In this document: one piece after another, positions 3,394 through 44,500 of the stretch | Layout of the letters: the number at the start of each line of letters is the position of its first letter | Position numbering within the stretch: position 1 is the stretch's first letter | Assembly: GCF_002104995.1 (NCBI RefSeq) | Contig: NW_024468250.1 | Location: 1,550,001 to 1,614,000 of the forward strand | Direction of reading: 5' to 3' | Length of the DNA stretch: 64,000 nucleotides | DNA from: Linderina pennispora | Lineage: Eukaryota; Kickxellomycota; Kickxellomycetes; Kickxellales; Kickxellaceae | Notes under the pieces: generated by a model | Databases searched by the model: none | Told to the model about the DNA's origin: nothing | Seen by the model: only the letters and a program-made list of their open reading frames with translations | Translations under genes and position numbers: made by a program

Positions 3394-4765
3394 CTACACA
3401 GCTACTGCAACTCCTTGTGTCACTATTGATTCACTGGGGGCTGGCCTGTTGGAAGTGTGTTGCGATATGCTGATTTGTGATAGACCGACGCTGGCCTGCG
3501 CAATGGTGCTGTACGAGTCCTCCCAAGTTCCTCTACTCAAACACCTGTGTTCCTCTTCAGCCAGCCTGCGCTTCCTAATTTTAAAGTACGCCGTAACAGA
3601 AATGCCAACAGCGACCATGATCGCTATTGGCACACACAGCGCCACGGCCAGCATGTCCAGTACACTAAAAGTCGACTTTTCGATCGTGCTGATAATATCA
3701 GAATGATCAGTGTCGATATCTGTCTGACTAGGCAAACACCCCGGCGCTCTTGTTGCCACAGGATACCCGGTATTACGCAAGTCCCCAGTCTGCCCCATGA
3801 CATACGGGTTGCGCGAGTCCGGACCACACCAGGTTCTGCATGTTGCCGCCAAAAGTCCGTGTACCTGGCGTCGCTGTCCGTCCACGGCTTTGTCATCCCA
3901 GGCATGCCGACCAGCACCACGGGAGACACGATCGAGTAGTCTGGTGGCGAATGGTATGAACTGCGGAAGATTGATGTAGTAGTGGTAGCATTGGGTGGCA
4001 CCGCACATGCTATTGCCGTATACCGAACTGTGGCAGTACAGTGCTGTTGCTGCCGCTGCACTAATACCGTTAATTTCGTATACCAGTCCTATACGGCAGT
4101 GTGCATGCCCGACTGCCGATTGGCGACGGTGGTGGCTGACAGTGAGGTGCACGAGAGGTACAACGCGTTGGCATTATACAAGGCTTGATGCACTGGCTGC
4201 AATTCTCTGTGGCTGCCTGCAATGTCTTGGCTAATGTATTGCCCCACTGCACCTTGTCTACATTATCGAGCTGGTGGTACATATACAGAAGTGATCCGTA
4301 TGAACCGCTGGTTGCATTTCTAACCAGTCCGCCTTGCTGATCTATGGTTATTTTGGTCCCCAAACTGCACTACCACAATGTTGTTGGCCTATGTTGGAGG
4401 ATGTCGAAGTTTGGAATGAATCGTGATTTTTGTGACCGGCCGCAGACTCGGTTTTCCCACTAGTGTCAACCAGCGAGGCCCTGTAGCTGCGGGTGTCGGT
4501 GGCCTGCACAGTAGAGTTCAATCTTAAACAGGCTGCAACAATCAAACCCTGAGGCGCTATCGATCAGCGCAATATCGCATGTGGTTGGTGCACAGTTCCC
4601 TCACTAACATGGCGCCGACTGTGATTCGTGACAAGTCATAATCATTAGTGGTGTCCTGATCACTGGACCTTGCGGATACTTGACTGTAGAATAGCATGTT
4701 TTACTGGACATGAAGAGTGTGAATAAGAAGGGTGATGCGAGAATGGAAATGAGTACGAATCTCAT
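3394..4765 (-). pseudogene. P1: trypsin-fold pseudoprotease membrane protein, heavily frameshifted
   Basis: Most decayed member of the seven-gene surface-protein family. The start at 4763-4765 gives a convincing signal peptide (MRFVLISILASPFLFTLF). Homologous blocks then appear in changing frames: GAMLVR, TTCDIALIDSASGF (about 4545-4590), IVAACLRLNST (frame of 4348-4545), CTLPYR then IGLVYEINGI, SSVYGNSMCG with CYHYYINLPQF, and a TM helix (LDMLAVALCVPIAIMVAVGI) followed by KIRKRR. At least three frame changes separate them. The tail (to 3394) lacks the PPxY motif and the WDP box is reduced to TWED. The triad positions match the rest of the family: no His before the second Cys, and C-x-L-P-Y in place of the GDSGGP loop. 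Either a pseudogene or a gene damaged by assembly indels; P1 has more damage than its relatives. Confidence 0.65.
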
Positions 4766-5420
4766 TATAAAGACATTAAAAGGAAGGTGTGTGTGCTGAA
4801 GTGGGGTGGAAGCGACAAATGGCCATATTGCAGAAGTTCAAGTTCCCGAACAGAGCTGCGATATACACGCTGGGATACTCGGTGTACATGCCACTCTTCC
4901 TTGGGATGTATCAGAGTGGCAGGCAAAAAGAACGTGTTGCCACGGGCTTCTCATGTGAGCCGACTCCTCTTTCTCTAAATTCGGGTTATAGAAATAGAAC
5001 AAAGAGCCCTTTCTAAGGGAAGCGAGCTGTATTATTCCTTTCCCGAGGAGCACCAGGGTCGCTGAGTGCCAACCTGTCAAAAGCGAGTCTCCTGGTACTG
5101 AAATCACGGGCGGTTGTGCGGTGGGGCAAAATATATGAATCTCCATTTCATTCCACCACAGGATATGTATATCCAGAGTCGCCCACTGGGGACAGTGTAT
5201 TTCCATAGCCAGTTTGACTATCCGGAAATAGATATCTATTGTGTGAGGATGCCCTCCAGACAGACGATTACCTAGGGAGCGCGAATTGGCTAAAGATAAT
5301 TGACTGGGCTATTTTTGCGACCTGTTTTGGCCAGTAGTTAACAAAACACCATTGGTTTCTAATACCTTTTAGGGACAGCACAGATCACCACAGCGGTTGG
5401 TCAGCTTGGTATAAACCACA
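4766..5420. other. Intergenic between P1 and P2
   Basis: AT-rich spacer holding the P1 promoter. An open minus frame (4838-5206) has no family motif, signal peptide or membrane segment and is probably chance. Confidence 0.4.
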
Positions 5421-6571
5421 TCAATCTCCCTTCTTTCCATCTGTCCAAGCTAGACAAGTGGCACGGTAAATACTACAATATGTTTGCAATGTATAGTAAA
5501 TACCAAAGCAGAAATGGCCTATTCGAGACTCTTTGTAATTTCGGCCAGCAGAGTTGAAAAAGTCGAATGGAGCGTACCGGTCATTGATGCTATCATAGGT
5601 TGGTGGCTCCTCAGTCCCCGTGGATCTCTGCCTGGAAAGCTCCATCGATGTCGGCCCAGCAAGGTCCAAAGCGACTGTGCGCGTATTTTCTGCCTGTAAC
5701 TGGGAGTCATAGACTTGATTAGCTTGTCTGCGTCTACACCATTTGAGCCTAGAAAGACAACCAAAAAGATGAAAATCAGGCTGGCAGGTACGCAGACAGC
5801 AATGGCAATAGCTTCGCTCCGAGAGATGCCGCTGTTCTCATTGGAGGTTTGCTGCAGGGGTTCCAGGTTCAGTTGCGGCATCTGTAACCCGTATGCCACC
5901 AGCACCAGCACCAGCCTCTATTGCAGCATTGGCGCTAAGCACGCCCTCATCAACAGCAGTCGTATTCACCGTACCATCTTCGTGTAGGACAGGTGCTGTG
6001 GCTTTTTGGACACCCTGTAGCGTGTAAAGGTCGCCACAAACAGCGCCTGTAGCCATCGATGGTGGCTGAGTCAGGAATTGTCATCGAGTAGCTTGCTGGA
6101 GGTGTGGAGTTTCCTGATTTATTTCCCGTACCGCGTCTGATTACGTTACCAAGCACGCCTTTGGCCCAGTTGAAGTGATATGCTATACTGCGTAATGGCA
6201 ATATTGCTGGCGAATGAAATAGGGGCGTAGCGTGGGTGTACGCTGATCCTCTCCGTTGTGAACCTTAATGGCTTGTTTGCTGCGTTGGCGCTAACATACA
6301 CCCCGTACTTTGTAGCATTGTTGACGCTGTTTCCAATGTAGTCCAGGCAGCTGGCCGCAAGAAACCCAGGTTGGCTGTTCAGAAGTGCTAGCTGGCACGA
6401 GGTTTGCGTGCTGTTCTTGACAAACACGCCTCCTAGAACACTATCCATATCCGCATGGTTGGCTCGCTTGAGGATGGTATTGACGCGGGTTTGACCTTGG
6501 CTATCTGCCATCGCTAGCTGGACCGAATGTATCAATACAGTGATGGCAGAAAAGAGTGGCAGCAACACCAT
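5421..6571 (-). pseudogene. P2: trypsin-fold pseudoprotease with internal deletion and frameshifts
   Basis: Starts at the ATG 6569-6571 with a signal peptide (MVLLPLFSAITVLIHSVQLA), a KR dibasic site (ILKRANHADMDS), and the first half of the ectodomain: GGVFVKNSTQTSCQLALLN, FLAASCLDYI, SVHPRYAPISFASNIAI. At about 6190-6200 the sequence jumps to the C-terminal helix block AYHFNWAKGVLGNVIRRG. Against P3 and P6 this removes roughly 120 residues, including four of the six conserved cysteines. Downstream segments lie in different frames: GDLYTLQGVQ (about 6000-6035), the TM helix (AIAIAVCVPASLIFIFLVVF), then EEPPTYDSINDRY, a PPxY tail. The stop used by relatives seems lost and the frame runs to 5421. 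The deletion should destroy the fold, so I call it a pseudogene. Confidence 0.75.
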
Positions 6572-7124
6572 TTCCTGGGCCTGAATATTGGGTTTAAATA
6601 TAACCCATTACTGAGAAATGGGAGGATAGCCTGATACCCGGTAAAATGGTATGCACAAATTCAACAGCGAAAGCAGCGGGTGTTTCAGGGAGAGGGATTA
6701 AATCGAGGGCAATTTTCTGTTAGCCGAGCGAAATGGCCACTTTTAAGACTCTCGAAAGATTCTAGCCAAGAAAATATTAGCAACCTTGGGCCTATCAATA
6801 GCATCCTGCATCAACTACAACTGTATATGGGCAGGTATCTAAACAGAAGCTACAACACGATGCGGATCTTGGCCTCATCATGCACAGCACGTGTCTGGTT
6901 GTAGTGAGGGAAATTATCCAGTGCAGGCGCGCTAAACAAGCAGGGTTTACTAATCTACAAGGGCGCTGTATCCAGAGATGATGGGCTTTAATAGAAAAGG
7001 AAAAGCATGTCGGTATAATATGTAAATGACACAGGATCAAACATAATTTTGTCTAAGATACTCCGAGTATATGCAAATCTATTCAATGAATTAGCGGAAT
7101 ATAGGTAAAAGGGCCATAGAGTAG
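6572..7124. other. Intergenic, P2 promoter and P3 3' flank
   Basis: About 550 AT-rich bases. A TTTAAATATAA element at about 6592-6602 lies some 25 bases upstream of the P2 ATG. No gene seen. Confidence 0.4.
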
Positions 7125-8519
7125 TTAAGAACCCTTCATGACTTCGGAAATAGCACTAGGAAATGCTAACGCAGAGTTGTGCTCGTACATACTCTCATAC
7201 CTGGGCGGGGCCTCGGCGTACACAGATGTCGCCCCAGGAATATCCAATGCAGCCGTGCGTAGGTTTTCCGTCTCTAGCTGTGGGTCCCAGCTGCGTGATG
7301 CCTGCCTGCGCTTGCGCCATTTGAGCCCGAAGAACACCGCCAAGAAGATGATGATCAGACCAGCAGGCACACAGACGGCAATGGCAATGATTTCGCCCCG
7401 GGAAATACTCTTGCTTTCACTGGGAGCAACAGGTTCAGAGACGCCTGCAAAAATACCCTCTTCCAATCAGGTCGAGTGCAGATTCCAAATCTATCGCAAA
7501 GTCCGCACTCAGGAAGTCCAGGCTATCTGATTCTGTCGTTGAGGGGTTGTCATCTGGCATAACAGGGACCGGAATCGTTCTTAACGCCCTGTAGGAAATA
7601 GAGGTCTCCTCCAATAGCCGAGTAACCAGAGATGGTGGTCGAGTCCGGATGTCTCATTGCATAGTCAGCAGGAACGGTGACCTTGATGTCTCGGTTTTTT
7701 GTGCCGCGCCGAATAACGTTACCAAGAACCTTCTTGCCCCAGTTGAAGTAACTCGCAAGCATCGTATAGTAGTGTAGCTGTTTGCTGTTGCCGCAAATAT
7801 CAGTACCATGTACAACAGAATGGCTATATATACCGGCAATTGTGAGTTTTGAATCAATGGCACCATATACTGTGCCATACGGCACCGTGCAGCCTTCGGT
7901 GTAAATAGATCGCACTGCTCTGTTGTTGCACATCCAGTCCCTTTTGTTATTGGAAAAGACGTTGGACCAGGAACTGCACTGGCCATCAGATGCCTTGACA
8001 GAAGTAACCTCAGGCTCGTACCACTCCATAGTGGTGAGGTTCTTTAACGCACGGCGAATGAAATAGACATCAGCATACTCTGTCACATTGACACCTAGCG
8101 TCAGATTCCAGGTCATTCCAGACGATATGTTGTACTGGATAATGGCCACATTGTTGGTGAATGTGTCGGGGTCGTAGCTGGGGTGAACATCAATCTTCTC
8201 TGACATGAACCTTAGCGGTTTAGAAGTAGAGTTATTGCTCACATAAACCTCGTACGTTGTGCCATTATTGATCCGATTTCCGGATGTAGTCCAGACAGCT
8301 TGCTGCGACGAAGCCAGTCCGGCTATTCAGGAGCGCTAGCTGGCATGATGTTTGTGTGCCGTTTTTGACCAGTACGCCACCCAGATAACTATCCATATAT
8401 ACACGACTGCTACGTATCTGGACACCCGCCTGTATCGCTGGAGTTTCGTGATCAGCCGATACCCGTTGGAGCATTAAGGTCAAGAAGGCAGCAAAGCAAT
8501 AGAGGAAAAGCAGCATCAT
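7125..8519 (-). CDS. P3: membrane-anchored trypsin-fold pseudoprotease with PPxY tail (two frameshifts)
   Basis: Order: signal peptide (MMLLFLYCFAAFLTLMLQRV), trypsin-like ectodomain, acidic linker, TM helix (IIAIAVCVPAGLIIIFLAVF), KWRKRRQ, a SWDP box, and APPRYESMYEHN near the end. Six ectodomain cysteines match the trypsin pairs C42-C58, C168-C182 and C191-C220: TSCQL, AASCLD, QCSSW, WMCNN, GCTVPYG, DICGNSK. Triad positions are lost: FVAASC instead of TAAHC, TNNVAI instead of NNDIAL, and GCTVPYG where GDSGGP should be. The final helix block (QLHYYTMLASYFNWG) matches trypsin's VYTKVxNYxxWI. Segments 8519-8265, 8242-7550 and 7466-7125 are in different frames, so at least two indels. Probably a cell-surface binding protein with cytosolic WW-domain docking. 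Family fold is confident by motif; function is inference. Confidence 0.75.
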
Positions 8520-9569
8520 GCACTAGGCTGAATGAGGCAAGGGGTTGTTAGAGAAGGCTAGATACACAAAACTTAGGTGTAAGGGAGCTGAATAACCAAC
8601 ATAAATCGACAGGGCAGTAAAAGGACAAAGTAAATAGAGAGGGATCGCGGGCGTGGGGAATGCATGAGATACGCTCAATGCCAAAACTCCAAAGGCTGCG
8701 CTGTTTGTTTGTTTCTCACAACTACAGACTGGCCGGTACAGGAATGATTGCCCCCATTTACATTCCAGAAATTTTCTAGCCAACAACACGGCCATTTTAG
8801 ACCTCCCTTTTCTTGGCACAGGGTTTACGAGGAAAGGGACATGGCTATCGCCACGGTACTCACCATGTCCTTTTGCGATCAGTGGGCGCATTACCTCTGG
8901 AATGGGTAGGTTGCTTCGTCTGAAGGGAGAGGCGCCTGCCTATATTTGTGCAGTGGCAGGAGTAGGGAATTTGGGGTGCAAACTGTTGGCACAGAGATAT
9001 ATCATACCGAATACATGTCTATCGTGTCAGGGATGAAACACAAACACCTTACTACCACCCCAATATTTGATGTTGGCTGGCTCTATGTGTGCTGGCTATC
9101 CGTGCATGTGTGATGCTCATGCTCTGCAGCTAAATTGCTTCTAGTGGTCACAATACGTCTTTCTATATGCACACAAGTGCACAAGAGTACCAGCAAGCAG
9201 CGCTGCTCACTTCTTGATGTCGGTCATGCCGAGGGGAAATCAAAGCAGCATTCCTTTAGCACCACCCATGCTACTACGCATGGCCGCAATGCTAATGAAC
9301 ACAACGCGGAAAACGAGTGTGCAGCACTGATGTGTAGCAGCAATCGCGACCAGCATATGATTGCCGTCCCTTTTATGTTTGCTACTTTCTAGCCATGGGG
9401 ATCCGAAGAATATCCCTGAAACCGTGGTCTAGTACACAAAGCACAGATAAATATAATTGGACTGGTCAGGATCTATGGCTGTCACTACTACTTGGTTTTA
9501 TCGTGCTAGTCCTTACCTCTCTTCCGCACCCCCGTCGTACACAACCATCATCCTTATCCGCATCACGCT
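8520..9569. other. Divergent intergenic region between P3 and P4
   Basis: About 1.05 kb shared upstream region for minus-strand P3 and plus-strand P4. Open frames here (e.g. 8523-8891 minus) show no domain or family motif. Could hold regulatory sites for both genes; none recognised. Confidence 0.4.
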
Positions 9570-11031
9570 ATGAACCCTCAGCTATCATTCATTTATTTTT
9601 CCCTACTTTTTCTCACATCTAATGCCCTTAATTACCCACTTGTGAGGCGCGAGACATCGGTTGCCAGAGTTCGTGAATTTCATGGTGCTGTGCTGCTGAA
9701 GAACGGAAAGCAAACTTCATGCGAGCTTGCCTTGATGCACAACAAAGCCGCGTTCGTTCCAGCCAGCTGCTTTGATATCGACTCTTCGAACAACGTCAAC
9801 GATGTATCCCCGTACGAAGTGGCTCTCGATGCTGGCGGGACTCCTATCACTCGGGAGACAGTCACTGTTGACAAGGTTATTATCAACCCACGTTACAATC
9901 CTACGACCTACGCGAATAATGTCGCAGTTATTTTCTTTAACTCGCAAGCCAAGGAGGAATGGAGCAACTATATTGACAGATACCCGCAAGAGCTGACTGA
10001 CCGCGCCTACGTCCGCCGCTCGATGAACGATGAGGAAAAGAAGTCATGGAATGCACCCGCTGTTGTAAACGATGTGAAAAACGACGAGGGGTGCAAACAA
10101 GCGTCGGCTCAATTTGCCTCCAACCCTGCAGACCTCTGGTGCAGCCCAATGTCAGTGACTTCTCCAGTAGGAGGATCCTGCCATGTACCATATGGAATCG
10201 TGTACGGAATTGTCGGCTCGGACATGGTGGTTACGGCCATGTACAGCCACTCAGCCGTCTATGGAAACGACATGTGCGGCGACTCGAAGGCGTACCACTA
10301 CTACACAGTACTGTCGAACTACCTCAACTGGGCTGTCTCGGTTGTCCCTGGCGGATTTGCTATCTTCTCCAGTGATGGCCAGTACTCTGCCAGCGATGAT
10401 CCAAACTACGGGATACAGGATTCAAATGGTTCAAGCCCCAATGGCGTCAACGTTGTTGGTGGGGATTTGTATGCTCGCATCCCAAAGGCGGACTCTAAAG
10501 CTACCTCTAGCCTCCCCAGTACCAGCACAAGCACAAGCACTGAGCCGTCGTCAGCTAGCAGTACCTCTTCCCACGATTCGTCGCATTCATTGTCAGTCGC
10601 CTCTAGTGACAGTGATGAGAGCTCAGAAGAAGACTCGCTTTCTCACAAGACGTCCACATCCAACAGTTCCACTGGCAGTGCCTCCTCGACATACTTTAGC
10701 ACCCAGCCCACGGAGTCGTCAAATAGTACTCCAACTAGTGGAATGCTGGAATCAAAGTCACCATCCAATCTCAGCAAGGAGTGAGGTCATTGCTCTGGCA
10801 GTAAGCGTCCCGCTTGCCATGATCATTGTTGCTATCGTGCTGTTCCTCCTGTACAAGCGCTGGCGGAGGCACAGGAATTCTGCTTCCTGGGACCCGAACA
10901 GCGAAAATCATACAATTCGCGCGATCGCCCTCGACCTTGATCAGCCAAATGCAACCAACGGCCGTCCCCCAACGTATGCAAGCGCAGATGGTGAGGACTT
11001 TGCAGTTTTCAATTTCAACAGAAAGGCATGA
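9570..11031 (+). CDS. P4: membrane-anchored trypsin-fold pseudoprotease with PPTY tail (one frameshift)
   Basis: Best-preserved member. The ATG at 9570 opens a signal peptide (NPQLSFIYFSLLFLTSNA) followed by a dibasic site (PLVRRETS). Ectodomain motifs: GAVLLKNGKQTSCELAL, FVPASCFDID (His57 position Ser), VIINPRYNPTTYANNVAVIF (Asp102 position Val), GCKQ and LWCSP, GSCHVPYGIVYG (GDSGGP loop gone), YSHSAVYGNDMCGDSK, YHYYTVLSNYLNWA. A Ser/Thr-rich stalk follows (about 10500-10760), encoded partly by an AGCACA/AGCACC microsatellite. After a one-base shift near 10765 come SEVIALAVSVPLAMIIVAIV (TM), KRWRRHR, SWDPNSE, RPPTYASADGEDF and the stop at 11029-11031. An AATAAA-type signal sits at about 11046. 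Closest relative is P7, in mirror orientation. Confidence 0.8.
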
Positions 11032-11068
11032 GGAATGTCCAAAACAATAAACCAACTATTACACTTGT

Positions 11069-11574
11069 CAGAAGGCTGAATGCGCTTTCCTCTACAGGCG
11101 TTTGAAGACCGGGCAGTTTCAATGGGGAGGACTGCATATGCTTGATGGGGAGTTCCAGCTCCGCTCTTGCTCTGGGGCGACTGGAATACGGATTCCCTGA
11201 AACGATGCAGGCAAGGAGACGCTTAAAGGGGATCTATAAATAGTGCGTCTTTGCGCGATGCGCGGATCCATGTTCATTTCAATATATCGCGCATGCCGTG
11301 AATAGCCGATCCAAAAATCGGCCTTTGCTTGCTGCCTTTCCAGGACCCGGAAACCTGCAACGGCTGAAAGCGCGCTCACTTCCCCATTGGGGATCTCGAT
11401 TTGCCGCTGGCGCAGACCCGGACAAGCTGCTGTGTTCAAAAGTCGCATTGAGCTCCATGCTTCCACTCAAGCATGGTCCGAGCCAGTGGTAGGCTGAGCT
11501 GGTGTAGAATCTGGCAGCCTTTCTGTGCTGGAAGCACCCAAGACACCGCCCATATGTGAAGTGTTCTCCATGCC
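11069..11574. repeat. Left arm of ~505-bp inverted repeat
   Basis: The sequence from CAGAAGGCTGAATGCGC (11069) to GTTCTCCATGCC (11574) recurs as its reverse complement at 16379-16882, with only a handful of substitutions and 1-base indels. It begins 38 bases after the P4 stop. It contains CTATAAATAG (about 11234-11243), a palindromic TATA-like element. An open frame crosses both copies but indels shift it between copies, so it is not conserved as protein. Confidence 0.9.
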
Positions 11575-12617
11575 ATCGATATGGAGCGTGTATGTAGTAG
11601 GTCTTGCTATGGACAACACAAACAGCATATCTGATACACATAGCCAACACGCATGTGTGAAATCGATGAGATCTTCCTTTTGTGGTGTGTCAAAGTAGAC
11701 GAGCAGGTTTTATACGAATGATCATTTCTATGGATTCATCAGCATATACGCCCAAATACACTGAGAGTGAAAGGAATGTGGAAAGCTGATAATCCAATGC
11801 AACACAATCAATAATGGCTTAGATGGCAAGGAAGGACATATTTGTGTGTGAAGCGCAATGTAATCAGCTGATAGCATAACATGGAACTAGAGGGCACAGT
11901 GTATGGATCAGTATATAAACAGACAGCCGCTATCAAAACAGGCATCTTTGGTAGTGCCGCTGCTCTGGCAATGGTATCGTTCACCCTAGTCCAATACTGC
12001 AGAAAGCGGGCGTATCTTCTGGAGGTGAACAGATTGCATCTGAAACTATACCGGAAATAGACTGGGCATCCTATACATATGACGCAATCTTACTGACGCA
12101 CGAGGATATTCTGGGAGCAGGGTAGCCTGTAAGGATACCAATCTAGAACCTAGAAATGTAGTGGAATCTTAGCCGTGGACCTCTTGGAATCGACGAAAAG
12201 ATATAAATAAATAGGAGCACTGCTCGCTTGGAAATAGCTTGGAGCACGGTAAGCGTGCTTTCTGACATTTGTATTCTTTCTGGAAGTGCAAAGAAAGATT
12301 GTCGACTCGAATCTTGGTATGCATGATCTAGTATACCCCCTCATTTCCGGCCACGAATGCAATTTGTTTTGGTTTTTTCTGCCTACTGATATTATTAAAG
12401 GAGCTAGCAAAATCTCGACAGGTATTTCGCACATTTTGCAAAATTTCTCTCCAACTTCCCTTTTTCATTTGTATCTTTTTTCTTCTGTAGCATTGGCTGC
12501 AATTGCATTCACTAGTCAAAACACCACATATTCATTGTTTCTGCATTGTTTCTGTTTATGCCTACTAGCTTAGGCTCAACGTCGTTATGAAACACGCCGG
12601 TATCACATCCTATTACC
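11575..12617. other. Spacer inside the inverted repeat, upstream of P5
   Basis: AT-rich spacer. Apart from the small ORF at 11881-12060 (listed separately) I see no gene; the 12150-12573 frames on both strands look like chance frames in AT-rich DNA. Confidence 0.4.
11881..12060 (+). CDS. Possible 59-residue single-pass membrane micro-protein or gene fragment
   Basis: An ATG-started ORF of 59 codons, with stop codons just upstream in frame. It reads as a short polar N-terminus (MELEGTVYGSVYKQTAAIKT), one hydrophobic helix (GIFGSAAALAMVSFTLVQYC), then a basic stop-transfer RKR and an amphipathic tail ending LKLYRK. If a one-base indel lies near 12015, the tail would instead continue GVSSGGEQIASETIPEIDWA... 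to a stop near 12125. The layout resembles the TM/tail part of the surrounding P genes, but no PPxY or WDP motif is present. Could be a remnant of another paralogue, a genuine micro-protein, or chance. Confidence 0.3.
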   Translation: MELEGTVYGSVYKQTAAIKTGIFGSAAALAMVSFTLVQYCRKRAYLLEVNRLHLKLYRK

Positions 12618-13853
12618 ATGCTCTTGCTTACTCTGCTCCTTTTCGTGACGGTGTTTGCCCATGCTCAGGAAAAGGACCAGAATAGTGGCGCTGCGGTAAA
12701 CATCAAACAGCTCCGCGGTGCAGTCCTATTCAAACAAGGGCTCCAGACAACATGCGAGGTTGCTCTAATCGACAGCGGCGCGGGGTTTGTCGCTGCTAAT
12801 TGCTTTGAGCTGGACGACAGTAGTTCGGTAAAGGGACATTGGCGCATACTCTGTGGCGGTGGATAGTGGAGAGAATTCAAAGTTGGGGGTATACGATGTC
12901 ACTTCTATCAATGTGCACCCTGGCTACCAGCCGCAGTCAGTGGCAAACAATATTGCGATCATCCAGTTCGCCGGTAAGCAGCAAAAAATCATGGACCAAC
13001 GCCGTTGGAATAAACCCTCGCGAGTATACAAACCATGTTTTTGTCCGCCGAGTATCCAAAGACGTGGCCGGAGAGACGTGGGTCACCCCATCAAAGAAGT
13101 CGTCGGTCTATCCAGCCCGATGGATGTGCTGATGCCTCGCCGATGTTCGCCACAAACACTGGCGATTACTGGTGCAATTCCTTGAAAATGGACGCAGTTG
13201 GAGGGACAAACTGCTCCATGCCATTTGGTACCGCATACGGGTCTGTCAACAACACTCTAGCCATGGTGGCCTTATATAGCCACTCTGCCGTCTATGGTGA
13301 CGATTTTTGTGGGGGCAGTGACCAGTTCCACTACTACACCCTACTTGCAAACTATACTGCATTTGCCTCGGGAGTGCTTGAGCGCCCGATTAGCGTCTTC
13401 TCAGGCAAAGCAAACCCGTTGGTGACCCGCAGTCCAGTCTATTCAGTGTACGTTCCGCGTTATCATAGTGTCGAGGGCGTGAACGTTATCGGGGGGAACC
13501 AGTTCGTCCGACAAGGTAGCACCAGCACCAGCACCAGCACTAGCCCTAGCACCTTCACTGACTCGACGCCGACGATCCAGGCGTCTCAAGAAAATCAAAA
13601 AGTGAATGGCAAGCTGACAAAATCCGAGATAATCGGGCTGGCAGTGGGTGTCCCTGTCGCTTCAGTTGTGCTGGTTGTCGCGTTTATATTCCTCTATAGG
13701 TGGTGGAAAAAACGGCATACTTTTGAAGCGCAGTGGGAGCCGGATGATACGAGCATGCTTCAGCGCCGATCTGTTCCAATGAACCAGGTTGGATATACCG
13801 GAAGAGCTGAGGATTCCAGTCCAACCTACAATGCGCTGCAATTCAGGTCCTAG
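12618..13853 (+). CDS. P5: membrane-anchored trypsin-fold pseudoprotease, SPTY tail (about three frameshifts)
   Basis: The ATG at 12618 opens a signal peptide (MLLLTLLLFVTVFAHAQ). Motifs in order: GAVLFKQGLQTTCEVALID, FVAANCFELD (Asn at the His57 position), INVHPGYQPQSVANNIAIIQ (Ile at Asp102), HVFVRRVSKDVAGETW, YWCNS, GTNCSMPFGTAYG (no GDSGGP), YSHSAVYGDDFCGG, FHYYTLLANYTAFA. A TSTSTSTS stalk follows, encoded by an AGCACC repeat at about 13517-13553. Then the TM helix (IIGLAVGVPVASVVLVVAFI), WWKKRH, the box QWEPDD and EDSSPTYNALQFRS to the stop at 13853. The tail has S-P-T-Y, so the first Pro of PPxY is replaced. Frames change near 12830, 13000 and 13130. Closest in its first half to P1 (shared TTC-[ED]-[VI]-ALIDS). 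Confidence 0.72.
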
Positions 13854-14552
13854 AGCCCCTCAAAAATATAATGTATTACCATTACAAGTACAGATACATG
13901 TCGACAGTGGGCTAAGGGTAGCACCTAGACCACGCTATTTTCCTCACTCGCTATTTTCAGCAGTCAATCGCAGAAATTTCTTGGGCCTGCACAGATGAGC
14001 CTCCATTAGCTGCAACCAGGCTGTTTACGCCAACAAACAAGAGCTTTCTCATGGACCCCGTTTTCAGCTCATTTGCGCTACCACTTTCAAATGCATCGGA
14101 TGATATGACGTGCATGTGGGGATCGTTTTTTTGAGACTGTCAGCAAGATTCACCCATGTTTTTGTAGCAAATGCCAAGAGGCGAGGTGGTGATGGGGATG
14201 GCAGGCAATCCCCTCAGATGCATAATCTAGCAATGTCCGTTGAGTCCAGGGGATTCACACCGCTATGCAGTCATCGCATAAGGCGATTTCTGCGCTTTCT
14301 TGTGAAGGAAATGAGCAAGGTTTGGGTGGGCTCGGAGTTGCCAGTGGGCCTTTCCAAGTGCTCGTTAGCCGTGCTGCCTGGGCGTTTACCGTGTTCCTAA
14401 AAGCAGGATGTCCACTCCACCCAGGCTCCAACAAGGTTGGTGTTTGCAGCTCTTCACCATAGCAACATCCATCTATCTCTCGCTCTGTATTCTTCCACTC
14501 TGTTTCCCCCGATACCTTCCTACTAATATCTTTTCCAGTCTGACTCTAGAGG
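13854..14552. other. Intergenic between P5 and P6
   Basis: About 700 bases with P5 3' flank and P6 promoter. Pyrimidine-rich tract (about 14470-14550) immediately before the P6 ATG. No gene seen. Confidence 0.4.
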
Positions 14553-15946
14553 ATGAATCTGCAACTCCTCTGCTCTGCTATCGCTTTAATGGGGCAGGCC
14601 ATCCAACCGGTAGCGGCAAATGGCCAAAGCTCCCTTGGTACCACTAATATCGAGAAGCGCTACAACTTTGCGGACATGGACCAGTTCTTTGGTGGCGTGC
14701 TTGTCAAGAATGGCACACAGACATCGTGCCAGTTGGCGCTTCTGAACAACCAGGCTGGTCTGGTTGCCGCTAACTGCCTGGACTACATTGGAAACAGCGT
14801 GAACAATGCTACAAAGTATGAGGTGTATGTGAGCGGCACCCCAAAGGGTCAAGCCGTCAAAGTTCACATCAGAGAAAATTAACGTTCATGCCTGGCTACG
14901 ATCCGATCTCGCTGGCCAACAATGTCGCCATTATACAGTACAACATCTCGACAAGCTTCAGCTGGGACTTTACACTTGGCGTCAATGTTACAGAGTACAC
15001 CGATGTGTACTTTGTGCGCCGCTCGCTGAAAAACCTTACAGCTATGGAGTGGTATCCAAATGACGTTGTCTCGGTCAAGGCATCCGACAGCCAGTGCAGC
15101 TCCTGGTCAAACGTCTTTTCGGAAAACAAAGGGGACTGGATGTGTAATAACAAAACCACCGAGTCGATATTTACCAGCAAGTGCAATGTGCCGTATGGTA
15201 CGGTCTACGGCATCATGGGAAAGACATACACGCTTGCTGGCGTTTACAGCCACACAGTGGTCCGCGGTGATAATGTGTGCAGCGACAGCAAGCAGCTCCA
15301 GTACTACACGATGTTTGCAAACTACTTCAACTGGGCAAAGAGTGTCCTTGGATATTCCATACGGCGCGGAACAAAGAACAAGGACAAGAGCACCACCGTT
15401 CCTGCCGACTTCTCGATGCGGCGTCCGGACTCGATCACCATATCTGGCTACTCGGCTATTGGAGGAGACCTCTACTTCCTACAGGGTGTTAAGAACCATT
15501 CGGTTCCCGTTATGGCGGATGAGAGCTCCACTAAGGCAGATCCTGGTGATGAAAGCTTCTTGAGTGCTGACACTGGGATTGAGTATGGATCTGCACTAGA
15601 GCCGGTGGAAGGGGATACCTTTGTGAGCGGTTCGGAGCCTGTTGCTCCCAGCGAAAGCAAGAGTATTTCCCGGGGCGAGATCATTGCCATTGCCGTCTGT
15701 GTGCCTGCCGGTCTGATCATCATCTTCTTGGCGGTGTTCTTCGGGCTCAAATGGCGCAAGCGCAGACAAGCATCACGCAGCTGGGACCCACAGCTAGAGA
15801 CGGAAAACCTACGCACGGTTGCATTGGATATCCCTGGTGCAACATCAGTGGACGCCGAGGCCCCGCCCAGGTATGAGAGTATGCACGAGCGCAACTCGGC
15901 GCTAGCGTTTGCTAGTGCTATTTCCGAAGTCACAAAGAGCCCCTAA
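14553..15946 (+). CDS. P6: membrane-anchored trypsin-fold pseudoprotease with PPRY tail (two frameshifts)
   Basis: Signal peptide (NLQLLCSAIALMGQAIQPVAA), dibasic IEKRYNFADMD, then GGVLVKNGTQTSCQLALLN, LVAANCLDYIGNSVNNAT. Two indels within about 30 bases (14865-14895) shift FTSEKINVH and then PGYDPISLANNVAIIQ. From 14888 the frame is clean: VTEYTDVYFVRRSLKNL, QCSSW, WMCNN, SKCNVPYGTVYG, YSHTVVRGDNVCSDSK, LQYYTMFANYFNWA, SAIGGDLYFLQGVKN, an acidic linker, the TM helix IIAIAVCVPAGLIIIFLAVF, KWRKRRQ, SWDPQLE, APPRYESMHERN, stop 15944-15946. The region from about 15620 to the stop is almost the same protein as P3's, while the ectodomains differ much more. Triad residues are absent as in all members. 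Confidence 0.78.
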
Positions 15947-16378
15947 TTGACTATTTACCATTCTAATTTGTTTTGCATTTTCTCTTTTCGTATAATATCC
16001 CAGCATTACCAAACAGCTATGGCGATATGCTCTACGCACCTTCATTTTGATATCCGCTCTGTCATGTAGCTGAGCACAGACTCAGTATGCGAGACATGCT
16101 AAGGTGCTTACATGACTTCAACATAGTTGCATATTCCTGTGTGTTAATGAGCACAAATGATGCCAGGTAAGCAGTTGAGTGATAACTTCACACAAAATTC
16201 ATTTTTGCGGCTATATGCTTGCCACGCAGATCTGGCATATCGTTGGTGTTGACCAGAGCAAGTCCCACCACATGCATACTCGTCAGCGATAGCATCTAGA
16301 TTGGGGCCAATCGATATCTCACAAACAATCCACAACAAGCCAGCCACTAGCAGAAACGGAGACTTCTTGCATGGCATT
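15947..16378. other. Intergenic, P6 3' flank
   Basis: About 430 AT-rich bases between P6 and the right repeat arm. No gene or RNA recognised. Confidence 0.4.
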
Positions 16379-16882
16379 GGCATGGAGAACACCGCACACA
16401 TGGGCGGTGTCTTGGGTGCTCCAGCACAGAAAGGCTGCCAGATTCTACACCAGCTCAGCCTACCACTGGCTCGGCCATGCTTGAGTGGGAAGCATGGAGC
16501 TCAATGCGACTTTTGAATACAGCAGCTTGTCCGGGTCTGCGCCAGCGGCAAATCGAGATCCCCAATGGGGAAGTGAGCGCGCTTTCAGCCGTTGCAGGTT
16601 TCCGGGTTCCGGAAAGGCAGCGAGCAAAGCCGATTTTTGGATCGGCTATTCACGGCATGCGCGATATATTGAAATGAACATGGATCCGCGCATCGCGCAA
16701 AGACGCACTATTTATAGATCCCCTTTAAGCGTCTCCTTGCCTGCATCGTTTCAGGGAATCCGTATTCCAGTCGCCCCAGAGCAAGAGCGGAGCTGGAACT
16801 CCCCATCAAGCATATGCAGTCCTCCCCATTGAAACTGCCCGGTCTTCAAACGCCTGTAGAGGAAAGCGCATTCAGCCTTCTG
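16379..16882. repeat. Right arm of ~505-bp inverted repeat
   Basis: Reverse-complement partner of 11069-11574 (see there). It ends at CAGCCTTCTG (16882), 37 bases from the P7 stop, mirroring the distance between P4's stop and the left arm. The two arms enclose about 4.8 kb containing P5 and P6. Confidence 0.9.
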
Positions 16883-16918
16883 GCAGGTGCATGGGTTTGT
16901 TTATTGGTGTAAATCGCC

Positions 16919-18271
16919 CTATCCTTTTCTGGCGAACGAGAAGAAAGTAAATTCCTCGCCGTCAGTACTGACATATGTCGGTGGCCGAGCTCCAGCGGGG
17001 ATAGACGAAGTAGGAATTTCAGGCTGACCGAGATCAAGTGCCATGGCGCGCATTGTGGCGGATTCTCTGTTCGGGTCCCAAGAAACTGTTTTCTTGTGCC
17101 TCTGCCAGCGCTTGTACAGGAAGAACAGCGCGACTATGAGAATAACCATTGCCAGAGGAATGCTTACAGCCATAGCAATGAATCTGGCCCTTCTTCAGCG
17201 TATCTGACGAATGGGAAGCCTGCGCATCGCCGGTCTGCTGGCTGCCATTGGTGGCTGAAGAGGACTCAACGCTGAGAAGCCCGTCATCGTCGGAATCATC
17301 ATTGCCGGTGGACGTGGTGGATACTGTGGAGGTAGGAGTTTGCATCGACCCTGCCGTTACGAGCGTAAAGGTCACCGCTGATGAGGCTCACACCACGAGG
17401 GTTTGCGGCTGTCGCATTCTCAAATCCATACCAGTCGTCTTTGACAGCAGCAGTCTCTCCAGTGCTTGAGAATGTTGGGATCCGATTCGGTCACGACAGT
17501 GTTGGCCCATTCGAGGAAATTGGCCAGTACAATGTAGTAGTGGAATGACGTTGCGCTGCCGCACGAGTTGTTGCCGTAGACTGCCGAGTGGCTATACAGC
17601 GCCGTAAATGCAATGTCAGACTTGACAAGGCCGTAAACGACTCCATATGGCACAGCGCAGGTGCCGTTCACTGGAGAAGGTATTGTCGCTGTGCTGCACC
17701 AAAGATCGTCCCGGTTGGATGCATACTGGACCGATGCCTCCTCGCAGCCCTCATCGATCTTTGCTGCCGTTTGTGATTGCTGGGCTGTTCCATTCCTGCT
17801 TGCTAACATCGTCTCAGTGAGCGGCGAACGTAGGCGCGGTCAGTCAGCTCCTCTGGAAGCACGTCTACATGGTGTGGTCCACTTCTCCTTGGACTGCGAA
17901 TTGAAAAAGACAATGGCCAGGTTGCTAACATAGTTGTCCTTTTGGTACTGAGGGTTGACAACAATCTTATCGATGTTGACTATCTCCTTGTTAGGAGGAG
18001 AGCCGCCAGCGTCTAGAGCAGCCTGATACCGGGTGATATCATCAACTTCGGAGCGCTTGTCGAGATTAATGCAACTAGCAGATACAAATGCCTGTCTGTT
18101 TGAAAGTAGAGCAAGTTCGCATGAGGTCTGCTTGCCGTCTATCAGAAGCACACCGCCGTGGAACTTGTTGATTTGAGCAACAGTTGTCTCGCGCTTCACC
18201 AGCGGAGAATTAAGGGCATTAGTCGTTAGAAATAACAGGGATAGGGCACTGGCTGCTCCTTTAATATTCAT
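16919..18271 (-). CDS. P7: membrane-anchored trypsin-fold pseudoprotease with PPTY tail (several frameshifts)
   Basis: Starts at the ATG 18269-18271: signal peptide (ASALSLLFLTTNALN), dibasic PLVKRETT, FHGGVLLIDGKQTSCELAL, FVSASCINLD (Ser at His57), IVVNPQYQKDNYVSNLAIVF (Leu at Asp102). Continuing in other frames: GCEEASVQYASN with LWCST, GTCAVPYGVVYG, YSHSAVYGNNSCGS, FHYYIVLANFLEWA, a Ser/Thr/Asp-rich stalk (about 17200-17370), TM helix (MAVSIPLAMVILIVALFFLY), KRWQRHK, SWDPNRE, RPPTYVSTDGEEF and stop at 16919. Frame changes near 17835, 17440, 17290 and 17180. It is the mirror partner of P4: same order, same 3' flank, but clearly diverged ectodomain. Confidence 0.75.
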
Positions 18272-19567
18272 GTTGTTGGGTTAATAAAAAACGATACAGT
18301 GTAAAGGGAGACAGAAGGAAAAGGTAGCTACGAGAAGAAAGATGGATGTGAAAGTGATATCTCCCACAGTGGATGGCATTTGAATGTTTTGACAGGTCGA
18401 GAATCCAGGTGCAGATATGCGTCGTACAGGTCCACCCAGAGTCCTATTGATGATTGACATGGCTGGCTGGAAGTCGCTTGGCGAGGGGATGGCAATCGCT
18501 AGGTTGTCGCTTCGGCCACCATGCAGCTGAGGTCCAAAATCCCTATCCCCAACTGTTTGTGTCTGCATTTCTGCCAGGTGCATAGCTGCGAGTAAACCAG
18601 GCAGGAGGCCACTTGTAGCCTCTTTGCGGCAGGATATAAATCGGGATAGTGCCAAGAGCTCCTGTCCACAACTGGTCGCCAACACTATGACGGCCTGCCT
18701 GTACAAGTATTGTATCTTTCCACGCCAGCCAAGCCTTATAGAGCGTGATTACGCCTTGCATCCATTTTGCGTATGTATTCCAATGAACGCAGTCGTTTTT
18801 TTTCCCTTGAGAGCCAATTGTGTATGTAATAGCCTTACAGGCAGAGGACAGCATCACAAGTGCTGCAATATCTTTCTGTGCCAGAGGGCATGGAGGTATA
18901 GGGGATGGGGGTGACCCGTTGGAAACAAAATGCACCCAGATCAACTGTGGGGGTGTCCCTTATGTCACCTAAAATAGCATGCTGCCAAGCAGAGTATCGG
19001 AGATAGTGATGCAATCCCATCCCAGCATTTTTTGCACATGCCTATGCCGCTATAAAAAGATTATGTCAACCTGATGGCTGCATGCCTGGTTTTCTATTTT
19101 TAGAGGTATCCTGACCCCGATATCCACAGTGCTTCTATCACAATAAAGTCTTACCTCTGGCTTGGCAACATCAGAAGTGGCCATGCTACCATCGCTCTCC
19201 TCACCAGCGGTGCCTAGCCCTGAGTGGATGGACTTGGGTCGTTGTGGTTCGCAGCATAGGCGGTATACTTGACGAAGATCACCCCTGCGAATGCCAATCG
19301 TCTGCCTTTTCCGTCCATCTGCGAGCGCGACGGTCACTATCAAATGCCCTGGTTTGTCCATGCTATAGACCCACTCAAAGCTATAACAAACAGGGCTTCC
19401 AAACCAAGCGTGCAGTTTTGGCCACCTAGCTGCACATGGCCAGTGGAGTCCACGGCCCAGGGCATGCATCAAGTAGTGATGTAATTATCTGAGTCTAACA
19501 AAAATGAAAAATACACAAGAGCGAGTTCGTGCGGTCATGTGAACAAGCGTTGCTCGGGAGGTCTATA
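18272..19567. other. Intergenic, no supported gene
   Basis: About 1.3 kb. A minus frame at 19050-19472 (140 codons) is the longest candidate but lacks signal peptide, domain or ATG-supported start that I can defend. Nothing else recognised. Confidence 0.35.
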
Positions 19568-20144
19568 TTACGCTTGTCGTGACAGCAGCGTGGACAGCGC
19601 GATGATGGTGGTGGTTATAGCGACGATAAACGCCAGAGCAATCAGGAGAGCACCTGACCACCGCAGCGGCCGGCGTTTCACCGCCAGCTGCGCATGTACA
19701 TGAGCAAATGAAGCCATTGATGCCACAATAGTGACAGCCGCCAGGAAAGAACAGTAGCAGACCAAGGCCCGTGGTATGCTGGTCGACAAAGTCAGACAGC
19801 CAGTAGTAGAAGCGGGAAAACTCGATGTTATCTGGGAACGAGTTTCTTGAGCCATTAAAGTCGGCAAGCGCAGCCATGCCTGTGGCCATGATTGCAAGCC
19901 CAAGCCGGAACCAGCTCAGGAAGTTGCGCTCGGCCGCATAGAAATCGCGCGCAGTGCTGCCCTTGTTGTCTATCTCGCTCGGGATGCCAGTAATCCCTAG
20001 AACGCGGTCTTCTGCAGCGGGGTCAAATGCTGTGCTGCCGGTAGAGCCACTGCTCGCGCTGACGCTTCTGCCCGCAGGTGACCATGGTCGTGATGCTGAC
20101 TGCAGCAGCGAGTCAGACTCTGTGTATAGGACCCTCCATGACAT
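19568..20144 (-). CDS. DUF202-type three-helix membrane protein (one frameshift)
   Basis: Start at the ATG 20142-20144. A Ser-rich cytosolic N-terminus leads into the DUF202 signature ARDFYAAERNFLSWFRLGLA, in which the first helix begins (residues about 70-105). The second helix (about 19735-19800) and third helix (LRWSGALLIALAFIVAITTT) follow; the protein ends TLLSRQA at 19568-19570. A single-base indel near 19755 splits the ORF between helix 1-2 and helix 2-3. DUF202 is shared with bacterial YidH-like proteins and resembles the membrane domain of vacuolar transporter chaperone (VTC) subunits; here no SPX or polymerase domain accompanies it. Likely an endomembrane or vacuolar protein; exact role unknown. 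Confidence 0.8.
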
Positions 20145-41539: not shown

Positions 41540-44500
41540 CTACCACAGCGGGACCCATCCTGGATACAGCACAGCCAGGTTCTCCGATGACGTTGCCTGC
41601 TGGATCAGTTTGTCGATCTGCGCGGCCACGGTCAGCTGTACGTTCGGGTCGAAATCGGTGCCAAGCAGCTTGCTCGAGATCCGGTTGACGATGGCCTTGG
41701 CCTTTGGGTTTCCGACCTGCCACCCCTTGTCATCGAGACCAGCAAAGTCGGCCATCTTGGTCTTGCCGGCCCTCGTCACCTTCTCATCGGGCCGGCTGCC
41801 GCCCTCGATCGCATTGCTGCTGCCGCCCTGGCCCATGTTCCATCTCTTCAGCTGCGCCTGGTTTTGCTGCTTCTGCTGCGCTGAAACATTGCCAGTGCCG
41901 TTGGCCGCTTCCTGGTTTGTGTTCGACTCCGGGTCTTGGATGTACGACCACGACACCAGTGGGTCAAACACAAAGGCCTCGAGTACAGCCATCAGCGAGT
42001 CGCGGTTCGCACGCAGCACGCGCATCGTGTGGTTGGCCGTGAACTTGAACGAGCCCTCGATCGAGCTGACCTCCATCGGCATGACAACCATGCGGGTCAG
42101 TCTGAACGGAACCGGTCTCGGGGTACTTTTCGCGCTGTGAAGCAATCTCGAAGCAGTCGCCAAAGTCAATATGCACAGCCTTGCCCGAGCGCTGGTGCAG
42201 CATGATGTTTGAAGGGTGCCTGTCACCGAGTCCCAGGATGTAGCCGGCAATCGACATGACCGCCATCGAGCGTGTGTACGTCGTGCGCCGCTCGAGCCAC
42301 GTCTCGGCATTGGGCGACTTGTACCACATCGCGCGCTGCAGGTCGTTGCCTGGTGTGTTCGACAGTGCATATTCGAAAGGACTCGACCTTCTGCATGACC
42401 GTCAGCGTCTCCCAGTTCGGCGAGAACTGCATCGCCATGCGCTGCTCCAGATTCAGCGGCTGGTTGTGCGAATCGCGGTAGTCGCGAATGACCTCGTGCA
42501 TGGTCTCGCAGTTCGGGTAGAAGCCGAATCAGACCAGAGTTCGATGACAGCGGAATGACCGGGTAGCGCTCGATTGTCAGCGCACGCCTCGCGGTCTCTG
42601 GGTCCCTGGCCAGCAGCGACGTAATCAGACCGAACAGCTGCATAACGCGCTCGTCCTGGCGCAGATCCTCGTGACCCTTGAGCACAAACGTGTACTCCTT
42701 GCCGTCAGAGCCGAAAATCCCGACGCGACGAGGATGCTGCTTTGTGTTGTATACATGTACAACAGGGTCGAACGACGTGATCCGGACAAGTGGCCGGTCT
42801 GGATCGTACGTACCTGGAACGGCCAGGTGCATATCGCGGCACTCGAGAAGCGTCGGTGCCGTGTCCTTGAGCGCCAGCGACGTCGGCTCCGGGAACAGCT
42901 TCTCAATGCGACGGAAGATCACATAGTACGCCTCCCACGCCTGCTGAATCAGCGCCTCGTTGCGTCGTCCGGGTTCACCAGCCATGTACTGCGTCGTGTA
43001 CTCGTCGGCAGCTGCAAGCTCGTTGGCAAACATCTGCACGAAGTGGTACTCGCGCAGCGTCTCCGGGTTGCGTGCACGCTGGTGGAACGGCTTCAGCACC
43101 TTGATCATGCTGACCGGGTCGTTTTGGCCGTAGTAGTGCTTGGACGCGATGTCCAGCGCGTCGCGGCACATCTCGGGGAACAGCAGCGTGACGCGGATCA
43201 GCTCGCGGCTGACGACCTCGGTTTCCTCGACCAGCTCCGGCGTCAGATCGTGCAGTTTGTGCAGCACATCCTTGGCCGCGTGGCTACGGTCCGTGTGGTT
43301 CGAGCGCGCCGCTACGTACAACGAGAACAGGATTGCGTGTGGGTGGAACTTGCCCACCTCGACCAGCAGCTGCTGGATCAGCCGGCTCGTGCTCTCGGAC
43401 TTGATATGGATGCGCGCCAGGATCTGCGGAATCACCTGCAGCCAGGTGCGGATCGAGACGGTGTTGAATCCGTCCAGCACCGCCTGCGCAACCGACGAGT
43501 GCTGGGAGTAGTTGAACCACACCGTCAGCAGTCGCAGCGTGTCCTGAAGCGTCGTATCGCTCTTCGAGAGCTGGATGGCGCGGAAGAACCCATGGACCGC
43601 CGGCACCACATGCTTCTCGATGACGTTCTCTGGCACGATGCTGAGCTCGCTGTCAATCTTCTGCGTCTCGTAGTAATGGCGCAGCGCCAGCGAGTGCCAC
43701 GCCTTGTACCATTTGCGGTCAAGCACTGTCGCCGCCTGGTATGACTTCAGGATCACCTCGTTAATCGGGCCAACCTTCATCCGCGACAGGAACTCTGCGT
43801 CGCGGTCGGCCTCCGGTGACCTTCTGCGGCGCCGTTGGTCGCACCAGTCGCAAATCCGGCAACAGAAATCGACATGCTCCGGCCCGACCGTCTGCTCACC
43901 GATCCGCGCCGGTCGAACCGCTGCGGCAAGTAATGGCTGTCATCGGCGCCTAGGGCTGCCTTGCTCTTCGCCTCCTGCACCAGATTCGCATTCTGCTGAA
44001 TGCTGGTGAGCCACTCGGCCTTCTTGAAGAAGAAGCGTGCCAGCAGACGTACCCGCTCGATATCACCGCTGTGCGTTCCGATCGTTGACTAGCGACGTCG
44101 CAGCGTCCAGCTGGTCGATGAACGTGTGTGGGTTCTGCACATCGAACCGGAGCTGCGCCGCGTACTCGGTGGTGAACGTATCCAAGCCCTGGAATGCGTC
44201 CCGGCGACGGTTGTCAGCCCACTGGTACTTCAGATACGCGTAGACCAAGGCTGGCTGCTGCGACTGGCGGATCGATATGTCGAGCGCCTGATCCAGACTC
44301 CTCGCCGTACTTGCTGAAATCGCCGACCAACCCTTTCTGCCGGTTCATCTCCTTCAGCCGGGCATACTCGTGCGCCTGCTGCACCAGCATCGGCGGTAGC
44401 GTCTCCGGGTCACCGCGCAGCGTCTCGTCCATGTACTTGGCCTCGTCACTGACCAGTGTGCGGATCGCCTGCTTAGGCGATGTTCATCTGGTCGGCCTTG

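Follow-up and report, generated by a model that had tools for sequence, protein, structure and literature searches.

The soil fungus Linderina pennispora carries, in one 64,000-nucleotide stretch of its 26-Mb genome (C112:1550001-1614000, hereafter the window), seven related gene copies that lie between positions 3394 and 18271. These copies, P1 to P3 and P7 on the minus strand and P4 to P6 on the plus strand, would encode trypsin-like domains that are tied to a membrane and are missing their catalytic residues, which raises the question of what such proteins do. Under the working name F1 for this membrane-bound pseudo-trypsin family, and using window numbering for the features of P1-P7, we report that its members are almost certainly non-proteolytic membrane proteins. 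On the sequence features described below, the chance is about even that they are surface receptors or cargo binders whose tails recruit a ligase of the Rsp5 type.

Pieces of all seven copies were recovered when the genome was searched in six frames with the 424-residue open reading frame (ORF) of P4. This search also returned further relatives at C112:1156683, C151, C46, C101:161910, C119, and C13 and, at E values of 3e-5 to 3e-4, S1 domains, either dead or active, at three loci (C101:8848, C201, and C181). Searches of protein databases returned 27 F1 proteins, two of which are the window's own. The initial annotation described one common layout for the seven copies; this holds for P3-P7, in which the ectodomain motifs, transmembrane (TM) helix, and tail are readable, and not for the incomplete P1 and P2, as the middle of P2 is unreadable and P1 is legible (by eye) mostly in its second half.

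When the structure of the P4 ectodomain (9654-10478) was predicted and used in a fold search, it gave the chymotrypsin-like double barrel that had been proposed, and a profile search against PDB gave an E value of 9.4e-6. PF00089 matches 11 of 16 F1 members at E ≤ 1, with P4 at 0.011, which is under the cut-off. A single-sequence comparison with PDB found nothing significant (best E 0.74), and no Trypsin Pfam match at E ≤ 10 was found among nine ORF pieces of the window, so that homology to trypsin was detected only via the trimmed ectodomain, profiles, and models. In a viral fold library, the named matches were mostly trypsin-like and polyprotein peptidases, and the best match (E 1.1e-8) was an unnamed entry. 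With the S1A peptidases (PF00089), F1 shares the predicted fold, the cysteines of three disulphide pairs, Ser214, and the C-terminal helix motif Y-Y-T-x-L-x-N-Y. Based on these models and profiles, the assignment of F1 to the chymotrypsin fold is a firm prediction.

The catalytic positions were read from a MAFFT alignment of 23 F1 rows, 13 rows of a second family (F2, see below), three other dead sequences, and ten active-type trypsins from the same genome. Left out of this alignment were P0005, a mis-spliced model, and P0020, P0024, P0026, and P0027, which are partial or rearranged; P0004, P0018, and P0025 were removed before the tree and the conservation count. The loss of all three catalytic positions that had been claimed was borne out by these rows, in which His57 is found in 0/23, Asp102 in 0/23, and Ser195 in 0 of the 22 that are readable there. 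The residue named at position 102 was wrong: the Val, Ile, or Leu assigned to it occupies position 103, one residue further on, and position 102 itself is Asn in 21 rows and Pro in 2, a register that is identical in a HMMER alignment to bovine trypsin. The Ser or Asn reported in place of His57 is present in most rows (Asn 12, Ser 6), and Asp (2), Ala (1), Pro (1), and Tyr (1) also occur. Position 195 is Tyr in 19 rows and Phe in 3. The GDSGGP loop, which had been thought to be shortened, is instead substituted in register, with C-x-x-P-[YF]-G running gap-free against C-x-G-D-S-G; positions 191-196 are also gap-free when F1 and F2 are compared with HHalign, and F2 has Tyr at position 195 in 10/13 rows. 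All 22 readable rows have Pro194, so the Asp194 of the zymogen switch is gone, and the IVGG start is absent from the scanned F1 N termini. The ten active-type trypsins show His, Asp, and Ser at 57, 102, and 195, which is no independent result as they were chosen for having these motifs.

Among the window copies, the residues at 57, 102, and 195 are Ser or Asn, Asn, and Tyr in P3, P4, P6, and P7 and Asn, Asn, and Phe in P5. Only Asn102 is visible in P1, and P2 has Ser57 and Asn102, with 195 unreadable. The expectation that no close homologue would have an intact triad agrees with what was found: 22 of the 27 returned F1 proteins were aligned and have no triad residue, and in the remaining five, as far as the printed letters cover these positions, none was seen by eye. 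The alignment therefore makes the loss of catalysis in F1 a firm prediction.

The initial annotation had further proposed that the family has long worked without proteolysis, and two observations agree with this: the triad is lost uniformly in diverged copies, and F1 ectodomains are under purifying selection where it is measurable. For the intact haplotype pair at C112:1156683, the ratio of nonsynonymous to synonymous substitution rates (dN/dS) is 0.26 over the whole gene and 0.17 in the ectodomain (Fisher p of 1.8e-4 and 1.1e-4, respectively), and the P3 and P6 ectodomains give a dN/dS of 0.14. For comparison, haplotype pairs of active trypsins have values of 0.11, 0.18, and 0.52.

The conserved residues of F1 can be placed on what we take to be their trypsin equivalents. 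Thirteen columns are invariant in the 20 F1 rows counted. Six are the conserved cysteines that had been noted (P4 residues 51, 67, 175, 191, 204, and 236, each in 20/20), which align with those of active trypsins and are predicted to form the pairs 42-58, 168-182, and 191-220. The other seven are Thr49, Asn117 (position 102), Ala119, Asn185, Pro207 (194), Ser226 (214), and Tyr245 (228) of P4, and His227 (215) is kept in 19/20 rows. Because Asn102, Pro194, Ser214, and Tyr228 occupy positions that, by our understanding of trypsin, form or border its active site, a rebuilt pocket is a reasonable hypothesis. The placement of the conserved residues around a single pocket comes from the alignment to trypsin numbering, not from distances.

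Outside the domain, the F1 proteins are predicted to have a type I membrane layout, in which the N-terminal signal peptide was judged by eye. Of the 19 N termini scanned, 10 have the dibasic site said to be often present, in the form of Lys-Arg or Arg-Arg a short way ahead of the domain. Read by eye, the domain is followed by ∼40 residues whose end is a G-G-D-L-Y-like strand and then, in order, by the Ser/Thr-rich stalk, the TM helix, and the basic stop. F1 thus differs from the S1A peptidases in this C-terminal extension, TM helix, and cytosolic tail, in addition to the absence from its rows of His57, Asp102, Ser195, Asp194, and the IVGG N terminus. Tails were scanned in 22 database proteins and seven typed stretches, a list of 29 that does not include P0001, P0005, P0024, P0026, P0027, or window copy P2. 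By hydropathy, 24 of these 29 have a TM helix followed by a tail of at least 20 residues; the five that have no TM helix or a tail of <20 residues were excluded.

A PY motif, [PL]PxY, which the initial annotation did not name, is present in 16 of the 24 tails when 0.9 would be expected from shuffling each tail, and the strict form, PPxY, in 13 against an expected 0.57. Two features that the initial annotation did name fared less well. The Trp-Asp-Pro (WDP) box is found in 9/24 tails and is absent from the others (for example, WEP in P5 and WGP in L014), and the SKG6-like helix corresponds only to weak matches (E 0.0028 to 0.08), all under the Pfam cut-off.

A candidate partner for the PY motif is encoded in the same genome, at a locus with three WW domains (C157:607809-608351) and then a HECT domain (606332-607234) on the same strand; this WW-WW-WW-HECT order is the layout of Rsp5/Nedd4. 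We know of no Sna3-type yeast client of Rsp5 that has a trypsin-fold ectodomain. What F1 has in common with Sna3 and other yeast PY-motif clients is a PPxY in a membrane protein (PMC2171029). There, the PPxY of Sna3 was observed to bind the WW domains of Rsp5 and to be required for endosomal sorting, whereas for F1 such binding is only predicted.

From these features, we infer that F1 proteins may serve as receptors or adhesins, as had been suggested, and a receptor or trafficking role is favored over that of a plain adhesin because of the PY motifs in the tails. In the mechanism that we propose, type I S1 pseudoproteases in a tandem and inverted array would derive from an ancestral enzyme of the trypsin type. 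The former active-site cleft would have been rebuilt from newly conserved residues (Asn102, Pro194, Tyr/Phe195, and Ser214-His215), and the rebuilt ectodomain would act at the cell surface by binding a ligand or cargo. Through its PY motif, the tail would then recruit the WW domains of the genome's own Rsp5/Nedd4-type ligase, and receptor and ligand would be ubiquitinated and sorted to the endosome and vacuole.

Several observations count against this proposal. No PY motif is found in 8/24 tails, among them those of the clade P0006, P0010, P0011, and P0013, and two of the 16 tails with a motif have LPxY (P0007 and P0012, with chance expectations of 0.12 and 0.20). The tails of P0015 and P0017, 8 and 19 residues long and thus uncounted, also are without a PY motif, and P0021 terminates within its hydrophobic stretch. 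Related tails are not independent of each other, and a motif of this length is poor evidence for WW binding. In the haplotype pair at C112:1156683, the dN/dS of the tail is 0.44 on 8 changes, so selection on the tail is not demonstrated there. In addition, P1 and P2 may be decayed copies, and the Ser/Thr stalk could fit a wall-anchored adhesin equally well.

This last point leads to the alternative that fares best, although we consider it somewhat unlikely: that F1 is a surface adhesin or wall-sensor whose dead domain attaches to wall polymers, to prey, or to other cells and whose tail serves only as an anchor or for turnover. The Ser/Thr-rich stalk and single TM helix recall fungal wall sensors, and the best Pfam scores of the nine window ORF pieces were for Psg1 (22.6 bits against a cut-off of 30.1), SKG6 (17.1 against 30), and Mid2 (13.5 against 23.2), although these sub-threshold matches do not extend beyond the TM region and the residues flanking it. 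In P0015, P0017, and P0008, whose tails are 8 to 23 residues long, there is little room for output; however, the PY motif is enriched among the F1 tails, and an anchor would need none.

It is also conceivable, if rather doubtful, that F1 serves active trypsins of the same fungus, or the inhibitors of these, as a decoy or cofactor, in the manner of animal serine protease homologues (SPHs). The best fold matches of F1 are tied, and one of them is protein Z, whose S1 domain is known to be dead. PF00089 matches the genome 52 times, counting haplotype copies and exon pieces, and the ten picked as active-type carry the His-Asp-Ser triad. The title of one study names two insect SPHs as a cofactor of phenoloxidase activation (PMC10540698).

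Each of the seven window copies has at least one frame break and P1 and P2 are incomplete, which could be taken to mean that the cluster is mostly made up of decaying pseudogenes and is functionless in this strain. The TOR, MFS, and GH81 genes of the window are also frame-broken (by eye, in three-frame translations), and CCT and HSP70 genes elsewhere (C68, C35, C152, and C166) are each split into matches, overlapping or abutting, in more than one frame. Because these genes are broken too, the frame breaks of the copies are by themselves no sign of pseudogenes, and they look like assembly indels. No break interrupts the family members at C112:1156683 and C101:161910 between start and tail, P7 and the C46 copy have by-eye matches among the intact proteins of another L. 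pennispora isolate (P0003, a close one, and P0016, respectively), and the dN/dS values are well below 1. Based on these data, we judge decay of the whole cluster to be quite improbable. A genome search for haplotigs found no second copy of the P4 or P6 region by which their frames could be settled. Least credible is that a new catalytic site evolved in the same cleft from Ser214, His215, Asn102, and Tyr residues: the invariance of Asn102, Ser214, and Pro194 and the near-invariance of His215 despite the loss of the old triad would fit it, but Ser214 is also found in 10/10 active trypsins, so its conservation may be structural, and we know of no catalytic mechanism that uses this set of residues.

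How the receptors proposed here might have multiplied can be considered from the arrangement of the cluster, which is a partly inverted duplication. Its flanking arms (11045-11575 and 16378-16906) are 97% identical, bracket P5 and P6, and were the only two matches in a genome search. When P3 and P6 are compared in blocks of 100 columns, their DNA identity is 59-78% in the ectodomain and jumps to 92-98% in the segment at about 15.66-15.86 kb, and the synonymous divergence (dS) is 0.24 in the TM-and-tail part and 1.43 in the ectodomain. The TM-and-tail parts, which are much more similar than the ectodomains, are at window positions 7125-7465 and 15606-15946. This jump in identity is what gene conversion would leave. 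Duplication, tail homogenization, and ectodomain divergence would together yield receptors that share one output and differ in their ligands. The fuller scenario, in which a trypsin gave rise to a diversified receptor family by way of a new pocket in its cleft, Rsp5-linked tails, gene conversion of the tails, and diversification of ligands like that of immune or self-recognition arrays, is speculative and, as a whole, unlikely.

Table 1. Positions of the F1 copies, their motifs, and the inverted-repeat arms, in window numbering
Feature	Extent	Strand	N-terminal and ectodomain motifs	TM helix	Tail	Remarks
P1	3397-4765	-	102-equivalent Asn 4362-4388; Y-C-H at 213-215 4015-4044	3577-3657	No PY motif	Most degraded copy; translations, motif positions; homology match C112:1553937-1554110
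P2	5519-6571	-	Signal peptide and N-terminal half	5747-5809	PPTY 5586-5612, in different frame	Ectodomain middle unreadable; homology match C112:1556179-1556457
P3	7125-8450	-	Ser57 8286-8312; Asn102 8132-8158; C-T-V-P-Y-G 7862-7894	7323-7391	PPRY 7188-7211	5' end approximate; homology match and translation
P4	9570-11031	+	Signal peptide; RR site 9639-9659; Ser57; Asn102 9909-9935; C-H-V-P-Y-G 10176-10208; Y-S-H 10236-10265	10786-10854	PPTY 10963-10986	Ectodomain a single open frame, TM helix and PPTY in a different one; motifs from translation
Inverted-repeat arm 1	11045-11575	+				Downstream of P4; no recognised gene
P5	12618-13853	+	Asn57 12786-12809; Asn102 12940-12969; C-S-M-P-F-G 13209-13241	13638-13706	SPTY 13815-13838, replacing PPxY	TM helix and tail from translation
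P6	14553-15946	+	KR site 14649-14666; Asn57 14760-14786; Asn102 14912-14941; C-N-V-P-Y-G 15179-15211	15680-15748	PPRY 15860-15883	Frame changes once, close to 14.85 kb; motifs, TM helix, and tail from translation
Inverted-repeat arm 2	16378-16906	-				Downstream of P7; inverted relative to arm 1
P7	16919-18271	-	KR site 18182-18202; Ser57; Asn102 17906-17929; C-A-V-P-Y-G 17630-17662; Y-S-H 17573-17602	17114-17179	PPTY 16964-16987	Motifs from translation

Elsewhere in the window, the TOR kinase gene (41543-48700, minus strand) is broken up among several frames, which suggests that indels in the assembly were left uncorrected. The G+C content is 48-51% at positions 4001-20000, 51% also at 20-24 and 28-36 kb, and 57-61% at 1-4, 24-28, and 40-60 kb. 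No RNA family at the gathering threshold was found in the window, and a scan with the bacterial code found no tRNA there.

F1 is accompanied by a second single-pass membrane pseudo-trypsin of Kickxellaceae, F2, for which 25 proteins were returned (P0028-P0052; 13 of them aligned) and which is present in the L. pennispora genome as L034:357-1808 (G000 C181:9431). Like F1, F2 has an S1 domain followed by one TM helix, is found in the same fungi, and has lost catalysis: His57 is replaced by Tyr or Ala in 13/13 aligned rows, and Ser195 is lost in 12/13. In contrast to F1, F2 retains a zymogen-type start (KR-[IV]-x-G-G) and Asp194, as well as, in most rows, Asp102, and it has a nearly invariant juxtamembrane cytosolic stretch, IYELGLQQLA-x-ELGGSYEPK. 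No PY motif was found in 24 F2 tails, three of them partial. The annotations of F2 proteins read "Transmembrane protease serine 5" or trypsin-like serine protease. The profiles of F1 and F2 match with a probability of 96%.

Three other dead forms were found, namely L037, a neighbor of F2 (Phe57, Asn102, Val195), L040 (Ser57, Asn102, Trp195; no TM helix by eye), and L026 (Ser57, Asn102, Ser195 lost). In a tree of 36 rows, F1 forms one clade (support 100/100) and F2 another (98/81), and a sister relationship of the two (21/17) is neither favored nor rejected. A single origin of all dead S1 domains was rejected for this 36-row set (approximately unbiased test, p-AU 0.0049), and catalysis was therefore lost more than once in this sample. 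Among the other trypsins of the genome, L031, L033, L041, and L050 begin with IIGG immediately behind a Lys-Arg pair, an arrangement that would suit activation by a kexin-type protease and not by a trypsin; the His-Asp-Ser triad of L031 and L033 is intact.

The F1 proteins come from Linderina, Coemansia, Kickxella, Martensiomyces, and Dipsacomyces wherever a source is named. Dipsacomyces and Linderina (order Kickxellales) were checked as Kickxellaceae, the family to which we take the other three genera to belong. The later F1 protein search and the F2 search scored the best 8000 candidates by shared words, and the restriction of F1 to Kickxellaceae may only reflect search sensitivity. In the Coemansia proteins P0018, P0020, and P0026, the N-terminal half of the dead domain is tandemly repeated (by eye).

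The initial annotation knew of no described family with this combination of features, and we likewise found none in the open literature among the matches listed. Dead S1 proteases are mostly known from animals. F1 resembles animal SPHs (insect SPHs, azurocidin, and protein Z) in being a dead S1 domain kept for non-proteolytic work. Some insect SPHs are linked to membranes, with the TM helix before the SPH domain in the architectures shown in the available part of that source (PMC1761132), whereas in F1 the helix comes after it, in a type I layout. F1 differs from the insect proteins also in being fungal and in having a PY motif in most of its tails. Membrane-bound dead S1 domains are thus known from insects, and what is new is a type I dead trypsin of fungi with a PY tail.

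These findings bear on how such proteins are catalogued and on how they could arise. A survey of early-diverging fungi states that it did not retain proteins whose catalytic residues carry invalid substitutions (PMC8778642), and families like F1 would drop out of such surveys by design because of this exclusion. The public labels "Peptidase S1 domain-containing" and "Transmembrane protease serine 5", the latter borne by F2 in several species, are misleading as to activity. F1 is fungal, membrane-bound, so far known from one fungal family, and has a plausible cytosolic output, and a second membrane-bound family, F2, exists alongside it. Together, the active trypsins, then F2, L037, L040, and L026 with parts of the triad and of the zymogen switch, and then the fully remodelled F1 form a natural series along which a secreted protease could turn into a receptor.

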